DNA from: a virus
DNA: 20,109 nt
Strand: one strand, 5' to 3'
Virus record (IMG/VR): IMGVR_UViG_3300024062_000088
Coordinates: 1 to 20,109 of that record
The notes below the pieces were generated by a model. It ran no database searches, was not told the origin of the DNA, and worked only from the letters and a program-made list of their open reading frames with translations. Shown here piece by piece: positions 11,169 to 20,109 of this stretch (position 1 is the first letter of the stretch; each line of letters opens with the position of its first letter). A program made the position numbers and the translations under genes.

Positions 11169-12320
11169 ATGGCAGTAAGCATAGATACAGTATATCAAAG
11201 AGTTTTGGCTATTGCCAACAAAGAACAAAGAGGTTATATTACACCTCAAGAATTTAACTTGTTTGCTAACCAGGCTCAAATGAAAATATTTGAGAACTAC
11301 TTCTACGAGTTAGACAAATTCTTAAGACTACCAGGTAACGACTCTGCTTACTCTGATAGAATAAACATACTAGAGGAAAAAATAGCTTTCTTTGAAAAGA
11401 ACAAAGTAGCAATGAGTTTAGTTGATGGTGATTCTTACTTAACCGAAGAAGTTACTAATGGAGATTTTACTAATTTCGTCGGCTTTAATGAGACAAGCTA
11501 TGAATTAGGAGTAATACAGCACGCATCGGCTCCTGAAACAACACTAGTGTCTGGCGCGCTAACTCTCCCTGGTAAAGAAACTACTGGTACTAGAGTACAG
11601 CTTACTGATGGAATAGTGTCAAATTTTGGTCTTGACACAGGTCGATTCTACAACTTAACTTACACTATCACTACTGGCGGAACTACTAATCTTGTGATTT
11701 ACAACAACGATTCTTCTATTTTTACTTCAATTCCATTAACCGTTGGGACACATACTGTTATCTTCGAAGCGAAAGGCGATAGGCTTTTTATTTGGAATGC
11801 AGATACCACTCCTGCTAACACTGTTGTATTTAGCAGCGTATCTATAAAAGAAGTAGTTCAAGACACTGCTACACTACCTACGGACGTATATAGATTAGGC
11901 ACTGTTTTCTACAATAATGGAACTAAAAATATTAGAACTGAAAATATAACAGCTAAGGAAGCTGATTTAATGGAACAAACAGCTTTATACAAAGCTAGCG
12001 AGCTTAGACCTGTATACGTTAGATTGTCTGCAACTAGACTTAGATTTTACCCTGCTAATGTATCTCCGGTTAGATCTATTAGTAATGTAAGCTGTAACTA
12101 CACGGCACAACCTACAACAGCTAGCTGGGGCTATAATATAACGCTAGGGCAAGCAACATACAACTCGGCTACATCAACAGACTTTCAACTTCACCCATCT
12201 GAAGAAACTTCTTTAGTGTTTGATATTTTAGAATTAGCCGGAATAATGATGGAAGATCCTGGCTTAGTAAATGCTGCTAACAATGAAGAAGCAGCTAAGA
12301 ACCAACAAGAATTAATGTAA
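11169..12320 (+). CDS. Neck/ring protein with inserted carbohydrate-binding-like domain
   Basis: This 383-residue protein looks like a ring or head-to-tail connector protein of the crAss-like type that has been split by an insertion. Residues 1-85 are helical (VYQRVLAIANKEQRGYITP, FNLFANQAQMKIFENYF) and residues about 233-383 continue with LPTDVYRLGTVFY, VYVRLSATRLRFYP and a C-terminal helix (LVFDILELAGIMMEDPG). Between them, residues about 88-230 form a separate beta domain with the order typical of CBM4/9-like jelly rolls: EEVTNGDFTNFVG at the start, YNLTYTITTGG and THTVIFEAKGD in the middle, and VVFSSVSIKEV at the end. The core would sit in the virion neck. The insert would project outward and could bind glycans. 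The start is the only good ATG after the hairpin. Confidence 0.75.
   Translation: MAVSIDTVYQRVLAIANKEQRGYITPQEFNLFANQAQMKIFENYFYELDKFLRLPGNDSAYSDRINILEEKIAFFEKNKVAMSLVDGDSYLTEEVTNGDFTNFVGFNETSYELGVIQHASAPETTLVSGALTLPGKETTGTRVQLTDGIVSNFGLDTGRFYNLTYTITTGGTTNLVIYNNDSSIFTSIPLTVGTHTVIFEAKGDRLFIWNADTTPANTVVFSSVSIKEVVQDTATLPTDVYRLGTVFYNNGTKNIRTENITAKEADLMEQTALYKASELRPVYVRLSATRLRFYPANVSPVRSISNVSCNYTAQPTTASWGYNITLGQATYNSATSTDFQLHPSEETSLVFDILELAGIMMEDPGLVNAANNEEAAKNQQELM
11430..11858 (+). other. Inserted jelly-roll (CBM-like) domain within the ring protein gene
   Basis: This coding segment (residues about 88-230 of the ring protein) interrupts the helical N-terminal and mixed C-terminal halves. Its boundaries are set by the change from charged helix (KIAFFEKNKVAMSL) to a Gly/Thr/Asn beta pattern, and by the return at DTATLPTDVYRLG. 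The family assignment rests on strand pattern only. Confidence 0.55.
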
Positions 12321-13227: not shown

Positions 13228-16200
13228 ATGGCTGAAATGAAAAGAAATTTCCTTAAAGGAAAAATGAACAAGGATTTTGACGAAAGACTTGTTCCTAGTG
13301 GAGAGTATAGAGATGCTTTAAACGTAGAAATAGTAAGCTCAGAAGGATCAAACGTTGGAACAGTACAAACTTTAAGAGGTAATAGTCAAGTTGACAACAT
13401 AAACTTTTCCTCCAGCGCACTAGCAGTTGGTAGTGTTGAAGACGAAGAAAACAATTTATTCTACAGTTTTATAGCAAACACTTATGATTTAACTGAACAT
13501 GCAAATGGAGGTTTTATTGGTAACAAGTGTGACACTATATGGCAGTACAAACAAGATGAGTCTGGAAATATAAGCGAGCAAAAGGTAGTTGTTAACGATA
13601 TGTATACGTCTCAGCAAATACCTAATACATTCGAGTATACTAATGATGGACAAGCAGTAACTATAACTGGTTTAAGTAGAGTAGCAAACTCTTTTAGACC
13701 AGGTGTTGTTGGAGGTTTTCCAGATGAACCAACTTATCTTGCTACTGGTGTTAGAGTGGGGATGCGTGTTCAAAAAATAAACGTAGCTGGTAATGACCTA
13801 TGGGGCAGCGCAGATATAAGAGTATTATCAATAGCAGATAGTGGCGATGGAACAATGGAGTGTACTATAACACCTTTAATTGGCATTGCTGAAGATAGAG
13901 ACGATTATGACGCAGCTGATATAGCTGCTGGAACTATAATAAGGTTTTCTTCCGACAGAATATTAAACTTTTCCACTGGAACTAAAGAGACTGCTACAAC
14001 AGTGGCTAGTAGCGGTCAAGTTTCTTTTACACCAAGTCTAGATGGTGAAACTACACTTATAACAGGTATAAACGTGTTAGATGATCTATTACTTTGGACT
14101 GACGGTAGAAATGAACCTAAAAAAATAAATATAAAAAACGGAATAGCTGGTAGTTCTAGACTTGCTGAACATACTAGATTATGGATTCCACAGAGAGAAG
14201 AAAAATTCCTTAGAGGTTGGCTTAAAGAAGAACATATTAATGTTATAAAGAAAACACCTTCAACTTCACCTAAGATAGAACCTCTTTCTACTTTAAGAAA
14301 TGGACCAACGAGCAGTTTAGTAAAAAAATATGTTGAGTTTGCATCTCCAGTAGCTGGACCTTTTGCTTTGCATGGACCTGGTGGAAATATATTTCCTGTT
14401 GGAACGGACCATTGGTTAGACTCGCTTATCGACAACGTAGCTTGGCAACCGTTCGACAAGATTAAATTAATAGGACAATCCTCTAATACTGTTGTTTACT
14501 TTAGATTAATACCACCTTATAACGCAGGTACAGATACAATAGATAAGCGTTTGTTTAGGCAAATAACCGTACCTGAAGGATACGATCCTAATGAAGTAGC
14601 TGAAGTTTGGTCTGCCTCTTTGGTAGTAGAAGAAGTTGACTCTTTATTTAAAGACAAGTTTATACATTTTGCTTACAGGTATAAATACACAGATGGAGAG
14701 TATTCTGTAATATCGCCTTATTCTACTTCAGCGTTTATTGCTGATGGTTATCAGTATAGCGCTTTGACTGGCTTTAATGACGGAATGCTTAATATAACTA
14801 GGATTGTAAACGTATCTAATTTTGTAACTCCATCTACCCCAGAAGATGTTGTAGCGGTAGAAATTTTAGCAAGGGATGTAAATGACGATGCTCAAAGTGT
14901 TTGGTCAGTAGCTTTCATTGATATTAACGATACTGCTTGGGCTAACGGAGGGTTTGTAAGTATAGATGACAACTCTTTTGGTGGAGCAATACCAACAGAT
15001 CAACTGCTTAGAGATCAAGACTTTGTTCCTATAACGGCTAGAGCTCAAGAAATAGTTGGTAACAAAATAATATATGGTAATTACACTCAAAACTACGATT
15101 TAAACAAGGTGAATATTATAACTGAAGTAGTATCTGCTTCGCCTTACCAAGGTGCCACTCAGTTATCTAATAACAATATAACTACCGCTCAGTCAGAGCC
15201 TTTAATAGTAAACCAAGGTGGTGTTGGTAATAGCTTATACAATGGTCCACTTAGAACTGACTACGAGGCTTCTGATCCACAGGGTAACTTTACTAACACG
15301 CCTGGAAATTATTTTTACACAGCGCCTCAAGATGGAACATACATTATAAAAGCAAGTGTCAACACGTTGATTTACAAGGCTATCCGTGGATTCGTTACAT
15401 ATAGTACCGGTCAAGCCAGTGATAGACTTGTTATATTTAGACCAGGCGTTGCTTTAAGACTGTATGACGTAGATGCTGCCGCATTCTTAACTAACGATGA
15501 AGTTACGCAGTTGTCAGGTGGTCCTTCTAGTAATCAATTTTTGTCAAATTCTCCGCAAGGACAAGCATTTACGGTCAATTTGTCTTATCCATCGGATTTT
15601 GAAGAAGTTAACTTTACATGGCAAGTTCCACTAACAGAAAACAAAAAGATACAAGTTAGAATTGTTGTAGATGATTACTCAAGTTTTACAACTTTCCCAC
15701 CAGGGGGCGTGTACAAAAGCATGAGCACGGACTTAGAGTACGGAACTATTGGAGCTACTTTTTCGTGGCCAAGTCCAAGTTCATACTATGCGACAGTTAA
15801 AAATGCCACATTCAATGTTGTTAGTTCGCCAGAAGTAGAAGAAAACATAATATTAGCACAAGGACTTAAGTCTGTGAAGTCTAATAAAACATATCAAACC
15901 GGTATAATGTATACGGATGGCAATAGACAAGCTGTAGTTCAAACAAACGAGTCTAGCAAGGTACAAACGCAAGTTCAAGACGCTATATCTGTAAATAGGA
16001 TAGCATGTACACCTATTAATACACCGCCAGTTTGGGCAACGCACTACAAGTATGTAGTAAAAGAAGTAGAGAACAGAGAGTACAATCTAGTTATGTCCGA
16101 GTCTTATTCTAACAATGATGATAACTTTGCTTGGCTTGTTTTCAACTCGTCTGATGTAGATAAAATCAGCGAAGGTGATTTCTTAATAATGAAAAAGAAG

Positions 16201-19173
16201 CATAACTCAACTGTTAGGGTTATTGATTCTAAAGCTAGGTTTAAAGTATTAAGCATAAGCGATCAAATACCAACAGCGGCAAATGATACTCCAATAATAG
16301 CATCTGCGGATGGAGCTGTAGGTAGATTCTTTGTCAAAGTTGACTACAATGATCAGTTTCAGCTATACTTAGGCACTGATTTTGATGCCTTATCTACTAG
16401 CACTAACGGAGCTGTTTTCACTAGCGAAAGATCACCAAGCAAGCTCTACGACTCTGGTATATTTTACGAGGCATCAGAAGCACACCCAATAAAACTGACA
16501 AGAGAAAACGCTCAAGACTACATACCGATAGGCTCTACACTACAGGTAGACTCTGCAAGCAATATTAGCAGTAGTGTTATCAGCTCTATACAGTCGAAAA
16601 TAAATGGAGCTACTGTGATAGGCGTTAGAGGTGCAAACTGCTTTAATAGAAAACAAATACTTGAAAAAAGTGGTACCGATGCTTTTTGTAGAATACAAGT
16701 AGATAGAGACTTAACTAATATACTTAATGGAGGATCATTTTTAAGTCAAGTTAGATTACATATAAGAGTTAATAGACCAGATGGCACTTTTGTTACTGTT
16801 AGGCTAGAGAAAGGTTTAAATAACGACGATACCCTACATGTAAATCCTTATACACACTCTGTTTATGATTTTAATGACTTAAACTTATCTTCATCTTTAG
16901 ACTTTTACAACTGCATAGCGTTTGGTAATGGTGTTGAATCAGATACTATAAGAGAAGACTTTGGAGCCGACTCTGTACATGTTTATGCACCTATAGGTAA
17001 AATAAGTGGTTTTAAAGCTTCGTTAGAAAATGAAGACTACAAGAAGGAGTTTAAAGGCAATTTTTTAATACACTCTCAAGGTTACAATGAGCAAAACGGA
17101 GTAAATAGACTTAATGAATTTTTAATTGGTCAGTCTATAGAAAGACAAATCGATAAGAACTATGGGTCTGTTCAAAAAATTTTTTTAAGTAATACAAACT
17201 TAATTATATTCTGCCAAAGTAGAGTACTTAGGTTATTGTCTGGTAAATCAGAGTTTTACAAAGCAGACGGAACAGCTGATGTAATTGAATTTAAAAATAG
17301 AGTGCTTGGCTCTGAGCTAGTTTACGGAGGCGGTGAGTATGGCATTTCAAACAATCCAGAGTCATTTGCCATAAATGAACAAAGAATATACTTTACTGAT
17401 ACAACTAGAGGAGCTGTTTTAAGGCTTTCTAACGATGGTATTACGGTTATATCTGATTATGGAATGAGAGATTACTTTTATGACAACCTAAAGAACGTTA
17501 GAGCTGCTATCGGTACATACGACGGAAGGAAAGATGAATACAATCTTACATTGCACCAAGTAGTACACCCTTACTTTGCTAAAAACGTTAATACAGTTAC
17601 TTTTTCAGAGCCTGCTAACGGTTGGTCTTGTTTCAAGTCATTTATACCAGAATCTGGATTAACAATGAACAATCTTTATTACACTTTTAAAGTAGGTAGA
17701 CTTTGGTTGCATCACGTAGAAAGCGTTAATAGAAATACGTTCTATAATGTTCAAACCGCATCTACAGTTTCACCTGTATTCAATGACTCCCCTGAAGTAG
17801 TTAAGAGTTGGAGAGCTATGAGCTACGAAGGTAGTGAAGCAAAAACTACCACTAGCAATGGCTGGTACGTAGAAAGTATAAATACTAATAGTCAGTCCGG
17901 TAAAATTGATTACTTCATAAACAAAGAGGATAAATTCTTTAATAGTATACAAGGAACAGAAACTGTGTTTGTAAACTTTGCTGACGGAGGCGCTACTGGT
18001 ACTGCTGCAAACAATATAGACACTAGAGAATTTTCTGTTCAAGGAGTAGGAGGCTTGTCTGGTAATCCAACGGTCGTAGGTACAACGCCTGAGCTAGGCT
18101 ATAGTATAACGGTAGATATTCCTGATACAGACTTTTACACTTCACCAGGCTTTCAATACTTGAATCAAACTACAACTCCAAGTGGATTGTTAGGTACGTT
18201 TACTATATCTCCTAAACCTGGCTACTCGATTAGTGCTTCTGATTTTACAAGCATAAGCATAACTAACTATCTTATATCTCCTTTGTCGTCAATAACTTTT
18301 TCTGACGTTGGAACTGCAAATACTCCAAGTAATTCTGTTTCAGTAACTATAAATAGTATTAGCCAGACTTTAACGAATGACTTAAACATAACTATTGATA
18401 ATTTCAATGAAATAGAGTTAGAGCAAGCGAATACTTTAATTAGAATGCGCCTGCGATTTAATGTAGATAATACAGCAGCGCCAACCGGCGTGAGCGTGGA
18501 GAATGTAACAATAAGTGAAGTAAGCCCACTAGTAAGCAGCACTTTATCGATAAATCAATCTAACTTAGTGCTTTACTTAATAGACGGAACTATTCCAGAA
18601 AATGCGTTTACATTACTATGTAATGTTCAGGTAGCCTTGTCTAGTGTAGATGGTTACTTTTATAGCGCTTTACCTGAGCCAATACTAACTTCTGATGAAC
18701 CTAATAACGAAGGCATAGAATTTCAAACACAGGTTTGGGGAGAGAATATAATTACTAATGAAAATGGGTTGCCAACAGCTATATCTTATAATGTTTCTTT
18801 TAATCCAAACGCTATTTATGGTATAAATGGTAATATTTATTCTTCTGCTAATTATGAGTTAAGTTTTGATAATCAACAAGTGTCGAGAAGTTCTGTTACA
18901 CTTAACTCTGATACTATAGTTAGACCTAACACTGCAACTACGTATGTGATACCTATTAATACAATAAACGGTATTCCAACGGCGGTAGAAGCTGAATCTT
19001 GGATTACTATAGATCTCATTAGCGTAGACAGTATTACTATAACATTGTTAGAGAATACTGGTGCTTCGAGAAGTGGAGATATAACAATAACGCCTGCTAA
19101 TCAAACGGGAGAAAACACAGTAACACTAACAGTAGTGCAACAGTCTGGAAGCTACATAGAAATTCAACAATAA
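13228..19173 (+). CDS. Giant tail stabilization/muzzle protein with C-terminal BACON domain
   Basis: This 1981-residue protein begins with the signature of the crAss-like stabilization (muzzle) family: FLKGKMNKDFDERLVPSGEY and then RDALNVEIVSSEGSNVGTV (residues about 8-46). Family body segments follow, including a propeller-like region around residues 1280-1430 (LNEFLIGQSIERQ, IYFTDTTRGAVLRLS). The usual family ending lies near 1460-1576 (GWSCFKSFIPESGL, TFKVGRLWLHH, WYVESINTN). Two additions stand out. A beta domain at about 640-865 separates YGNYTQNYDLNKV from GLKSVKSNKTYQTG. After about 1576 a further 400 residues of Thr/Ser-rich beta repeats end in a BACON domain (about 1890-1974). The muzzle forms the short tail tube end through which DNA leaves. 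The extra domains would sit on the outside. Confidence 0.87.
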   Translation: MAEMKRNFLKGKMNKDFDERLVPSGEYRDALNVEIVSSEGSNVGTVQTLRGNSQVDNINFSSSALAVGSVEDEENNLFYSFIANTYDLTEHANGGFIGNKCDTIWQYKQDESGNISEQKVVVNDMYTSQQIPNTFEYTNDGQAVTITGLSRVANSFRPGVVGGFPDEPTYLATGVRVGMRVQKINVAGNDLWGSADIRVLSIADSGDGTMECTITPLIGIAEDRDDYDAADIAAGTIIRFSSDRILNFSTGTKETATTVASSGQVSFTPSLDGETTLITGINVLDDLLLWTDGRNEPKKINIKNGIAGSSRLAEHTRLWIPQREEKFLRGWLKEEHINVIKKTPSTSPKIEPLSTLRNGPTSSLVKKYVEFASPVAGPFALHGPGGNIFPVGTDHWLDSLIDNVAWQPFDKIKLIGQSSNTVVYFRLIPPYNAGTDTIDKRLFRQITVPEGYDPNEVAEVWSASLVVEEVDSLFKDKFIHFAYRYKYTDGEYSVISPYSTSAFIADGYQYSALTGFNDGMLNITRIVNVSNFVTPSTPEDVVAVEILARDVNDDAQSVWSVAFIDINDTAWANGGFVSIDDNSFGGAIPTDQLLRDQDFVPITARAQEIVGNKIIYGNYTQNYDLNKVNIITEVVSASPYQGATQLSNNNITTAQSEPLIVNQGGVGNSLYNGPLRTDYEASDPQGNFTNTPGNYFYTAPQDGTYIIKASVNTLIYKAIRGFVTYSTGQASDRLVIFRPGVALRLYDVDAAAFLTNDEVTQLSGGPSSNQFLSNSPQGQAFTVNLSYPSDFEEVNFTWQVPLTENKKIQVRIVVDDYSSFTTFPPGGVYKSMSTDLEYGTIGATFSWPSPSSYYATVKNATFNVVSSPEVEENIILAQGLKSVKSNKTYQTGIMYTDGNRQAVVQTNESSKVQTQVQDAISVNRIACTPINTPPVWATHYKYVVKEVENREYNLVMSESYSNNDDNFAWLVFNSSDVDKISEGDFLIMKKKHNSTVRVIDSKARFKVLSISDQIPTAANDTPIIASADGAVGRFFVKVDYNDQFQLYLGTDFDALSTSTNGAVFTSERSPSKLYDSGIFYEASEAHPIKLTRENAQDYIPIGSTLQVDSASNISSSVISSIQSKINGATVIGVRGANCFNRKQILEKSGTDAFCRIQVDRDLTNILNGGSFLSQVRLHIRVNRPDGTFVTVRLEKGLNNDDTLHVNPYTHSVYDFNDLNLSSSLDFYNCIAFGNGVESDTIREDFGADSVHVYAPIGKISGFKASLENEDYKKEFKGNFLIHSQGYNEQNGVNRLNEFLIGQSIERQIDKNYGSVQKIFLSNTNLIIFCQSRVLRLLSGKSEFYKADGTADVIEFKNRVLGSELVYGGGEYGISNNPESFAINEQRIYFTDTTRGAVLRLSNDGITVISDYGMRDYFYDNLKNVRAAIGTYDGRKDEYNLTLHQVVHPYFAKNVNTVTFSEPANGWSCFKSFIPESGLTMNNLYYTFKVGRLWLHHVESVNRNTFYNVQTASTVSPVFNDSPEVVKSWRAMSYEGSEAKTTTSNGWYVESINTNSQSGKIDYFINKEDKFFNSIQGTETVFVNFADGGATGTAANNIDTREFSVQGVGGLSGNPTVVGTTPELGYSITVDIPDTDFYTSPGFQYLNQTTTPSGLLGTFTISPKPGYSISASDFTSISITNYLISPLSSITFSDVGTANTPSNSVSVTINSISQTLTNDLNITIDNFNEIELEQANTLIRMRLRFNVDNTAAPTGVSVENVTISEVSPLVSSTLSINQSNLVLYLIDGTIPENAFTLLCNVQVALSSVDGYFYSALPEPILTSDEPNNEGIEFQTQVWGENIITNENGLPTAISYNVSFNPNAIYGINGNIYSSANYELSFDNQQVSRSSVTLNSDTIVRPNTATTYVIPINTINGIPTAVEAESWITIDLISVDSITITLLENTGASRSGDITITPANQTGENTVTLTVVQQSGSYIEIQQ
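18895..19149 (+). other. BACON domain at the end of the muzzle protein
   Basis: Residues about 1890-1974 of the muzzle protein show the BACON pattern: an opening strand (VTLNSDTIVRPN), the central AESWITI with Trp1925, the strand SITITLLENTG, then SRSGDITITP with Arg1948, and the closing TVTLTVVQQSGS with Gln1971 and Gln1972. BACON domains (Bacteroidetes-associated, carbohydrate-binding, often N-terminal) are typical of Bacteroidota glycan-active proteins and occur in crAss-like phages. Confidence 0.75.
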
Positions 19174-19176
19174 AAT

Positions 19177-20109
19177 ATGCCAAATCCTAGAAATGTATTT
19201 TTAAACTCAGTTGATCCAGTGGATAACAATACTCAAGAGATAACTTTCAATGTTGTTACTAATGGAACAGCTCCGACAGCCGCTATATCGTATACAGATG
19301 GATCTGGCTGGGCAACTGTTGGTACACCAATACTATCAAACACTGACAACGATGGAAATAGTATATATGCGGTAAATGTTGTTTTAGACGTAAATGACTT
19401 TTCTGTGTCTGGTGATAATCCAAGAAGAGCTACCCTAACTATGACTCACTCTGACACAGTGGCAACAGATACTAATTTTATAGATCAATATGGCTACGAT
19501 CCGGCTACAGACACATTAACAGTGAGTCCTACGTCAGTTGTAGTTCCTACGTCTGCTACTTCAGGTACAATACAAATAACTAGTAGTTTGGCAACTGGAG
19601 ATTTACCAGGTGTTTCTATAGCGTCTATCACTGGTGAAGAAAATATAACTATAGGAGATGTACAAGAGGTTAGTGGAGAATCTTATACACATACTGTTTC
19701 GTACTCTTTTCAAGCGGCTAACGACGCTAACCCTAATGGCAATTCTGTATTCTTAAACTTTTTTCACCAATACAATAATCAACCAGGCGCTATTGCTAAT
19801 CAACTAATACCAATACAGCAATCATCGGCACCTTACTTTGAGTTCCAACCTGATAGTTCTAATAACCTAGAAATTGAGGTTGACAACGGCGATCACGTAG
19901 ACTACCAAATTCCATTGATAGATAATAGTGGTACTCCATCTTCAACAGAGTACAAGGTAAAAGTACCGGGTGGATCTGGTACCTTAGGAGATTGGGACGA
20001 AAACTTCTTAAACTCTCCAACTGGAGATGATTCTACATGGTTTAGTTCTGTTTCTGTTATTGATGGAGATAACTTTGACAAAGTTCTTCAGTTTACAGTA
20101 CAGGCAAAT
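19177..20109 (+). CDS. Partial tail protein made of tandem Ig/BACON-like domains (runs off the right edge)
   Basis: An ATG at 19177, three bases after the muzzle stop, opens a frame of 311 codons with no stop before the window ends. The first domain (residues about 1-100) contains DGSGWATVG with Trp45 and DNPRRATLTMTHSD near 80-93, the W-x-V and N-x-x-R-x-(A/G) signature of BACON-like repeats. A second starts at TLTVSPTSVVVPTSATSG (about 113) and ends with LIPIQQSS. A third begins at YFEFQPDSSNNLEIEVDNG. The style matches the C-terminal BACON domain of the preceding muzzle protein. It has no signal peptide, and its position after the muzzle suggests a tail appendage or receptor-binding protein rather than a secreted host-type protein. 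The C-terminus, which might carry an enzyme or fibre tip, is outside the window. Confidence 0.7.
   Translation, partial: MPNPRNVFLNSVDPVDNNTQEITFNVVTNGTAPTAAISYTDGSGWATVGTPILSNTDNDGNSIYAVNVVLDVNDFSVSGDNPRRATLTMTHSDTVATDTNFIDQYGYDPATDTLTVSPTSVVVPTSATSGTIQITSSLATGDLPGVSIASITGEENITIGDVQEVSGESYTHTVSYSFQAANDANPNGNSVFLNFFHQYNNQPGAIANQLIPIQQSSAPYFEFQPDSSNNLEIEVDNGDHVDYQIPLIDNSGTPSSTEYKVKVPGGSGTLGDWDENFLNSPTGDDSTWFSSVSVIDGDNFDKVLQFTVQAN

Follow-up and report, generated by a model that had tools for sequence, protein, structure and literature searches.

A crAss-like muzzle protein has here probably been joined in frame, at its C-terminus, to the head of a variable, adhesin-like module, a head comprising about three beta-rich domains of which the third is a BACON domain; this reading, together with the mechanism set out further below, is the one that we favour with good confidence. 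The window, by which we mean the whole stretch of DNA that was analysed (IMGVR_UViG_3300024062_000088 at its full length of 20,109 nt), carries the fusion in a single open reading frame at 13228..19173 on the plus strand, in which 1981 uninterrupted codons place the muzzle core and the module head in one chain of 1981 aa. T, module, site 1 and site 2 are names coined in this analysis.

Muzzle Gene and Its Genomic Setting

Judged from its sequence, the 13228-19173 product is a crAss-like muzzle: it matches PHROG family 14478 (E 7.9e-97), in tblastn it resembles structural proteins of Elemovirus (Flavobacterium) and Callevirus (Cellulophaga) phages as far as query residue 1580, and homologues along the muzzle chain were found in 71 viral loci. 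Among the ORFs upstream of the muzzle, PHROG matches point to a large terminase subunit and to three families of virion structural proteins. The nearest named muzzle relatives, namely Elemovirus, Callevirus (Cellulophaga) and Maribacter phage Panino, have a similar gene order, and the succession of head, ring-like and muzzle genes in the window resembles that of Callevirus and Panino. The first ring-like protein (window 11169-12320, 383 aa) is without a Pfam match and aligns with its PHROG family over two separate stretches, a pattern that suggests a beta-rich segment inserted after residue ~93, and a 237-aa ORF at 867-1580 matches virion structural PHROGs (best E 3e-8) and, weakly, a tail fibre family.

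The next ORF after the muzzle (19177..20109, plus strand) encodes at least 311 aa and runs off the contig end; it has no match in Pfam, PHROG or phage tblastn, and it may encode the remaining part of the module separately. It is absent among the matches listed in the search with the 35-relative module profile described below, direct blastp of the extension against it gave no significant similarity (best E 0.40), and close relatives of either the extension or this ORF were absent from the viral contigs and phage records searched. By eye, the ORF appears to consist of BACON-like repeats in series (Trp...Arg...QYG or QQSS), without a match in Pfam or PHROG.

End of the Muzzle Core and the BACON Domain

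The muzzle C-terminal piece, MUZ_C, spans 17593..18051 on the plus strand (residues 1456-1608), as delimited by an alignment with 17 relatives in which conservation of the core stops with the motif EFSVQGxG, represented in the window by EFSVQGVG at residues 1601-1608. The original prediction had placed the muzzle ending near residue 1576; the conserved core reaches a little further, to residue 1608. The crAss muzzle C-terminal domain (PF25729, crAss_MUZ_C) lies at residues 1501-1575 (18.3 bits, below the cut-off of 27). Among related records PF25729 scores above its cut-off in 31 of 35 and matches at E <= 0.1 in 34 of 35. The frame does run on past the muzzle core, as had been proposed, with the last ~370 residues being non-core. 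Beyond the core the sequence varies from phage to phage, with tails of 10 to 1429 residues in the loci whose muzzle ORF closes, and the extension therefore lies outside the muzzle core.

The BACON domain at the C-terminal end of the muzzle ORF is real. As module domain 3 it occupies 18865..19170 on the plus strand (residues 1880-1981), and the proposed Pfam search of these residues alone returned PF13004 at 18988-19143 (residues 1921-1972) with 37.3 bits and E 2.6e-9 against a cut-off of 25; the whole 1981-aa protein scored 30.9 bits against the same cut-off, and a search of the window genome itself gave 38.4 bits, whereas nine shuffles and the reversed segment of the BACON region produced no BACON match at E <= 10. 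The residues by which the domain had been recognized, Trp1925, Arg1948 and VVQQSG (from 1969), are all in place. In the predicted model the BACON part has a pLDDT of about 42-61; fold searches with the model of the extension returned common beta arrangements only, FimA being the best at Z 5.9, and no Foldseek match reached E <= 0.001. Sequence searches of the PDB, with either the full-length chain or the BACON domain as query, gave nothing meaningful, and an iterated search started from the BACON domain by itself gave nothing at E < 1e-3.

A known counterpart is the tandem-BACON tail protein of p-crAssphage, which is similar in that it places BACON domains near the tail genes of a crAss-related phage; it differs in carrying eight of them in a separate ORF (PMC6949934), whereas the muzzle ORF of the window has one Pfam-detectable BACON on the muzzle chain and not several. 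That paper reports no individual BACON domains in the vicinity of tail proteins, a statement to which the window is a counter-example.

Of 149 related virus records, 121 were searched for PF13004; the first batch gave no match at E <= 0.01 (0/43 records), and the other two gave matches at E <= 0.1 in 3/39 and 2/39 records. By their coordinates, matches lie inside the fused muzzle tails of L077 (23.8 bits) and L137 (23.2 and 19.1) and inside a separate downstream gene in L076 (19.5 bits) and L096 (13), while that of L140, the sole relative to reach the cut-off (25 bits with neighbours), falls outside both the muzzle tail and the downstream gene. In the muzzle core L076 and L077 are also the closest to the window, at 38.6 and 39.7 percent identity, respectively. 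Their modules are homologous over nearly the entire length (blastp E 8.5e-78), and the same BACON-bearing chain is, on this homology, separate in L076 and fused to the muzzle in L077.

The Extension as the Head of a Downstream Module

The original prediction spoke of a BACON domain fused to the muzzle C-terminus. The BACON domain is indeed joined to the muzzle, but the addition is larger, consisting of about three beta-rich domains homologous to the head of a neighbouring gene, and joining of this kind recurs among relatives. When the muzzle tails and the first residues of the separate genes in L076 and L079 are set beside the window, the joint between the old muzzle tail peptide and the start of the former downstream gene can be placed by eye at approximately 18136..18138 on the plus strand (~residue 1637). 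Module domain 1 (18187..18405, plus strand, residues 1654-1726) is matched at E 1.3e-14 by a domain profile of 35 relatives without the window, and it is marked by a GY.ISASDF motif, at window residue ~1665, which in relatives occurs near the start of the gene directly or shortly downstream of the muzzle. Module domain 2 (18577..18879, plus strand, residues 1784-1884) is matched by its own profile, likewise made without the window, at E 5.1e-4, with the next control at 5.4.

The larger module profile was built from 35 relatives, comprising 26 separate genes and 9 fused tails with the window left out, and it matches window residues 1656-1965 at E 1e-16, the best control among 432 ORFs upstream of the muzzle being 0.0046; none of 500 shuffles appeared among the matches listed, down to E 1.9. 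An early profile from four separate genes missed the window at full length, and its N-terminal part matched at E 2.9e-4. Direct blastp connects the window tail to separate downstream genes in L083 (8.7e-9), L076 (1.4e-8) and L079 (2e-7). These homologies identify domains 1 and 2 of the extension as the head of the neighbouring downstream gene. The BACON domain occupies the third-domain position in the alignment with relatives, and because the domain-3 profile of the relatives gives no match to it, it may have been swapped in rather than have descended from the common third domain. Fused or separate, the module has a conserved head, which therefore probably docks on the muzzle either way.

Architecture across Related Loci

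We surveyed the 118 of 153 loci that have a clear MUZ_C, a set in which two contigs are counted twice (L032/L134 and L064/L111) and some contigs are near-identical. The conserved C-terminus of the muzzle, which we call T, comprises ~115 residues with the pattern GYYA...N.S...AELFSVGSE...SSK. It is attached to MUZ_C in 24 of the 118 loci. In 75 a variable multidomain module comes first and T follows it as a small gene of its own. In the remaining 19 it was not found, and in 9 of these the muzzle ORF runs off the contig. In the 75 loci MUZ_C and T are interrupted: the separate T gene, of about 105-146 codons, lies 1.3 to 6 kb past the core with variable coding sequence between, and nowhere in the 118 loci was T found behind a long insert within one muzzle chain. 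The muzzle chain of the window does not end with the conserved T segment, and a search of the window in six frames gave no match to T; the Elemovirus and Callevirus loci, unlike the window, still have T with the muzzle C-terminal piece.

Within the 75 T-separate loci the module is separate in 38, where the muzzle tail is short, fully fused in 20, where T is the next gene, and partly fused in 17. A muzzle tail of <100 aa is followed by a gene of >140 aa in 40/40 loci, and a tail of at least 450 aa by a gene of at most 140 aa in 21/31; in the other 10 long-tailed loci the next gene is long as well, so some tails are not a whole fused module. Long blastp homology links fused tails to separate genes in L100/L120 (1e-97), L044/L130 (1.9e-62), L133/L116 (1.6e-51) and L145/L106 (2.7e-35). 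The module of L104 is Big_9/cadherin-like (Big_9, 45.7 bits), and that of L120 had no match among 50,697 phage records.

Immediately ahead of MUZ_C there is another variable site, site 1, where the muzzle is split into two ORFs in 18/118 loci and, in 5/118, contains a long in-frame insertion (site 1 was noted at L052:14152-17857, L157:10797-11359 and L156:10372-14285). The gap in L052 holds radical SAM/SPASM and mannosyltransferase-like genes, a gene annotated as a putative glycosidase stands at site 1 of MW202828, and the muzzle of Maribacter phage Panino is apparently split between CDS0075 and CDS0074. In L009, L045 and L070 the muzzles exceed 3300 residues, with ~1250 inserted before MUZ_C and a separate T gene.

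Pfam describes PF13004 as a putative binding domain, and variable beta-rich, sometimes cadherin-/Ig-like domains accompanied by BACON would suit surface binding; we infer that the BACON domain and the module bind a surface ligand, possibly a glycan. It is unlikely, though still worth weighing, that the Ig-like and BACON domains act as a structural spacer that scaffolds, decorates, lengthens or stabilizes the tail without any specific ligand, a role that recalls the BACON domains of bacterial enzymes, which have been read as linkers (work cited in PMC6949934). The strong variation of the module in length and domain content (tails of 10 to 1429 residues; the Big_9/cadherin-like domains of L104) would be commoner in host-range parts than in a spacer.

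Where the Module Attaches

A profile of MUZ_C+T matches the phicrAss001 muzzle gp44 at residues 1201-1292 of 1371 (E 5.4e-13). In L068 MUZ_C+T is a stand-alone protein, and its AlphaFold2 model (mean pLDDT 70.5) aligns with gp44 1242-1371 over 105 residues (Z 9.0, rmsd 2.1) and with the T7 nozzle at 674-790 (9jyz_P) over 85 residues, the latter with a Z of 5.7 that lies within the range of chance matches; by Foldseek there was no hit at E <= 0.001, the top one being the phicrAss001 muzzle at 2.8e-3. The C-terminal domain of the T7 nozzle is the platform, which contacts the adaptor ring, and the fibre dock lies beside it on the outer surface, between propeller and platform (PMC6702177); the ring-joining domain of phicrAss001 has been likened to that of T7, while the crass domain, inserted in IG2, is at the tail tip (PMC10172136). 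Because MUZ_C+T matches gp44 1242-1371 and the T7 platform, the module appears to be attached in the ring-facing domain, between its two parts, and MUZ_C and T would still form one domain when encoded by separate genes.

The original prediction that the BACON domain sits at the tip where DNA is released is not supported by this placement, in which the attachment domain matches gp44 1242-1371, and weakly T7 674-790, as a platform that would face the tail ring, away from the exit. The extension might yet fold down and display BACON as a glycan-binding module at the distal tip, by the DNA exit, given that the muzzle is the tail-tip protein in phicrAss001 (PMC10172136) and that three extended domains could span several nanometres; we regard this as improbable, since the attachment site lies in the C-terminal domain, whose T7 equivalent touches the adaptor (PMC6702177), and since the tip of phicrAss001 is formed by its crass domain.

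The phicrAss001 muzzle gp44 (PDB 7qok, 7qol), a large protein at the tail end with a homologous C-terminal piece, differs in that its C-terminal domain is intact to residue 1371 and without a module; variation in muzzle length has been ascribed, in PMC10172136, to insertions in the crass and IG2 domains, and the module of the window lies elsewhere. The T7 nozzle gp12 is similar in its C-terminal platform, which matches the MUZ_C+T model at a low Z (5.7), and in having a fibre dock between propeller and platform (PMC6702177), and differs in that no module has been described as splitting the platform.

Recurrence of the Fusion

Fused and separate states alternate on the muzzle tree with at least 10 changes, and a single clade of all 20 fused rows versus the 40 separate rows is rejected (AU p 3.2e-6), a test that cannot tell fusion from fission. 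The window groups with L077, both being fused, and with L076, which is separate, at an SH-aLRT support of 98. This was a quick tree without bootstrap, in which the window has a long branch (1.16) and L075 a very long one; it does not include 19/24 of the T-intact loci and so gives no direction for the separation of T. The fusion in the window is one of many among its relatives.

It is very improbable that programmed readthrough or frameshifting makes the fusion in all these phages and that the fused genes have merely fixed it. The gap from the muzzle stop to the next start is short, mostly 1-12 nt, which speaks for such a process, but the next gene is in frame with the muzzle in only 10/41 short-tail loci, which rules out a general in-frame readthrough. 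That an assembly or sequencing artefact joined two genes is scarcely credible, for although the fusion was seen on a single contig and no second copy of the extension was found, fully fused versions occur in 20/118 other loci, and the reading frame is kept across the joint, which is flanked by homology on either side.

Proposed Mechanism and Implications

In relatives the module sits between MUZ_C, which stays attached to the muzzle, and T, the former C-terminal end of ~115 residues that is now encoded by its own gene. In the mechanism that belongs to the favoured reading, T as a separate chain would complete the platform (ring-joining) domain in trans. The T gene of the window phage would be expected beyond the contig end. 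The module would hang from the muzzle shoulder beside the tail ring, in up to six copies per hexamer, and would bind a surface ligand, perhaps a glycan, before or during muzzle opening. Fusion would fix one module covalently to each muzzle subunit, and a separate module would be held non-covalently by docking via domain 1, the part that is conserved in fused and separate versions alike.

A wider reading, to which we give an even chance, is that in one crAss-related lineage a slot for exchangeable adhesin modules arose within the platform domain by which the muzzle faces the ring, leaving a two-chain platform (MUZ_C plus free T) and a module that is repeatedly fused and released. We found no account of BACON on a muzzle, or of modules between a muzzle core and its C-terminus, in the open-access papers searched. 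The prediction that follows is that the separate T protein completes the platform. If the slot reading is true, the tail plug itself carries host-range parts; the crAss-related tail-end protein would then be a carrier of exchangeable, probably surface-binding modules and not a fixed plug, the modules would be mounted where the muzzle meets the tail barrel, and their placement would bear on how receptor contact is coupled to muzzle opening.
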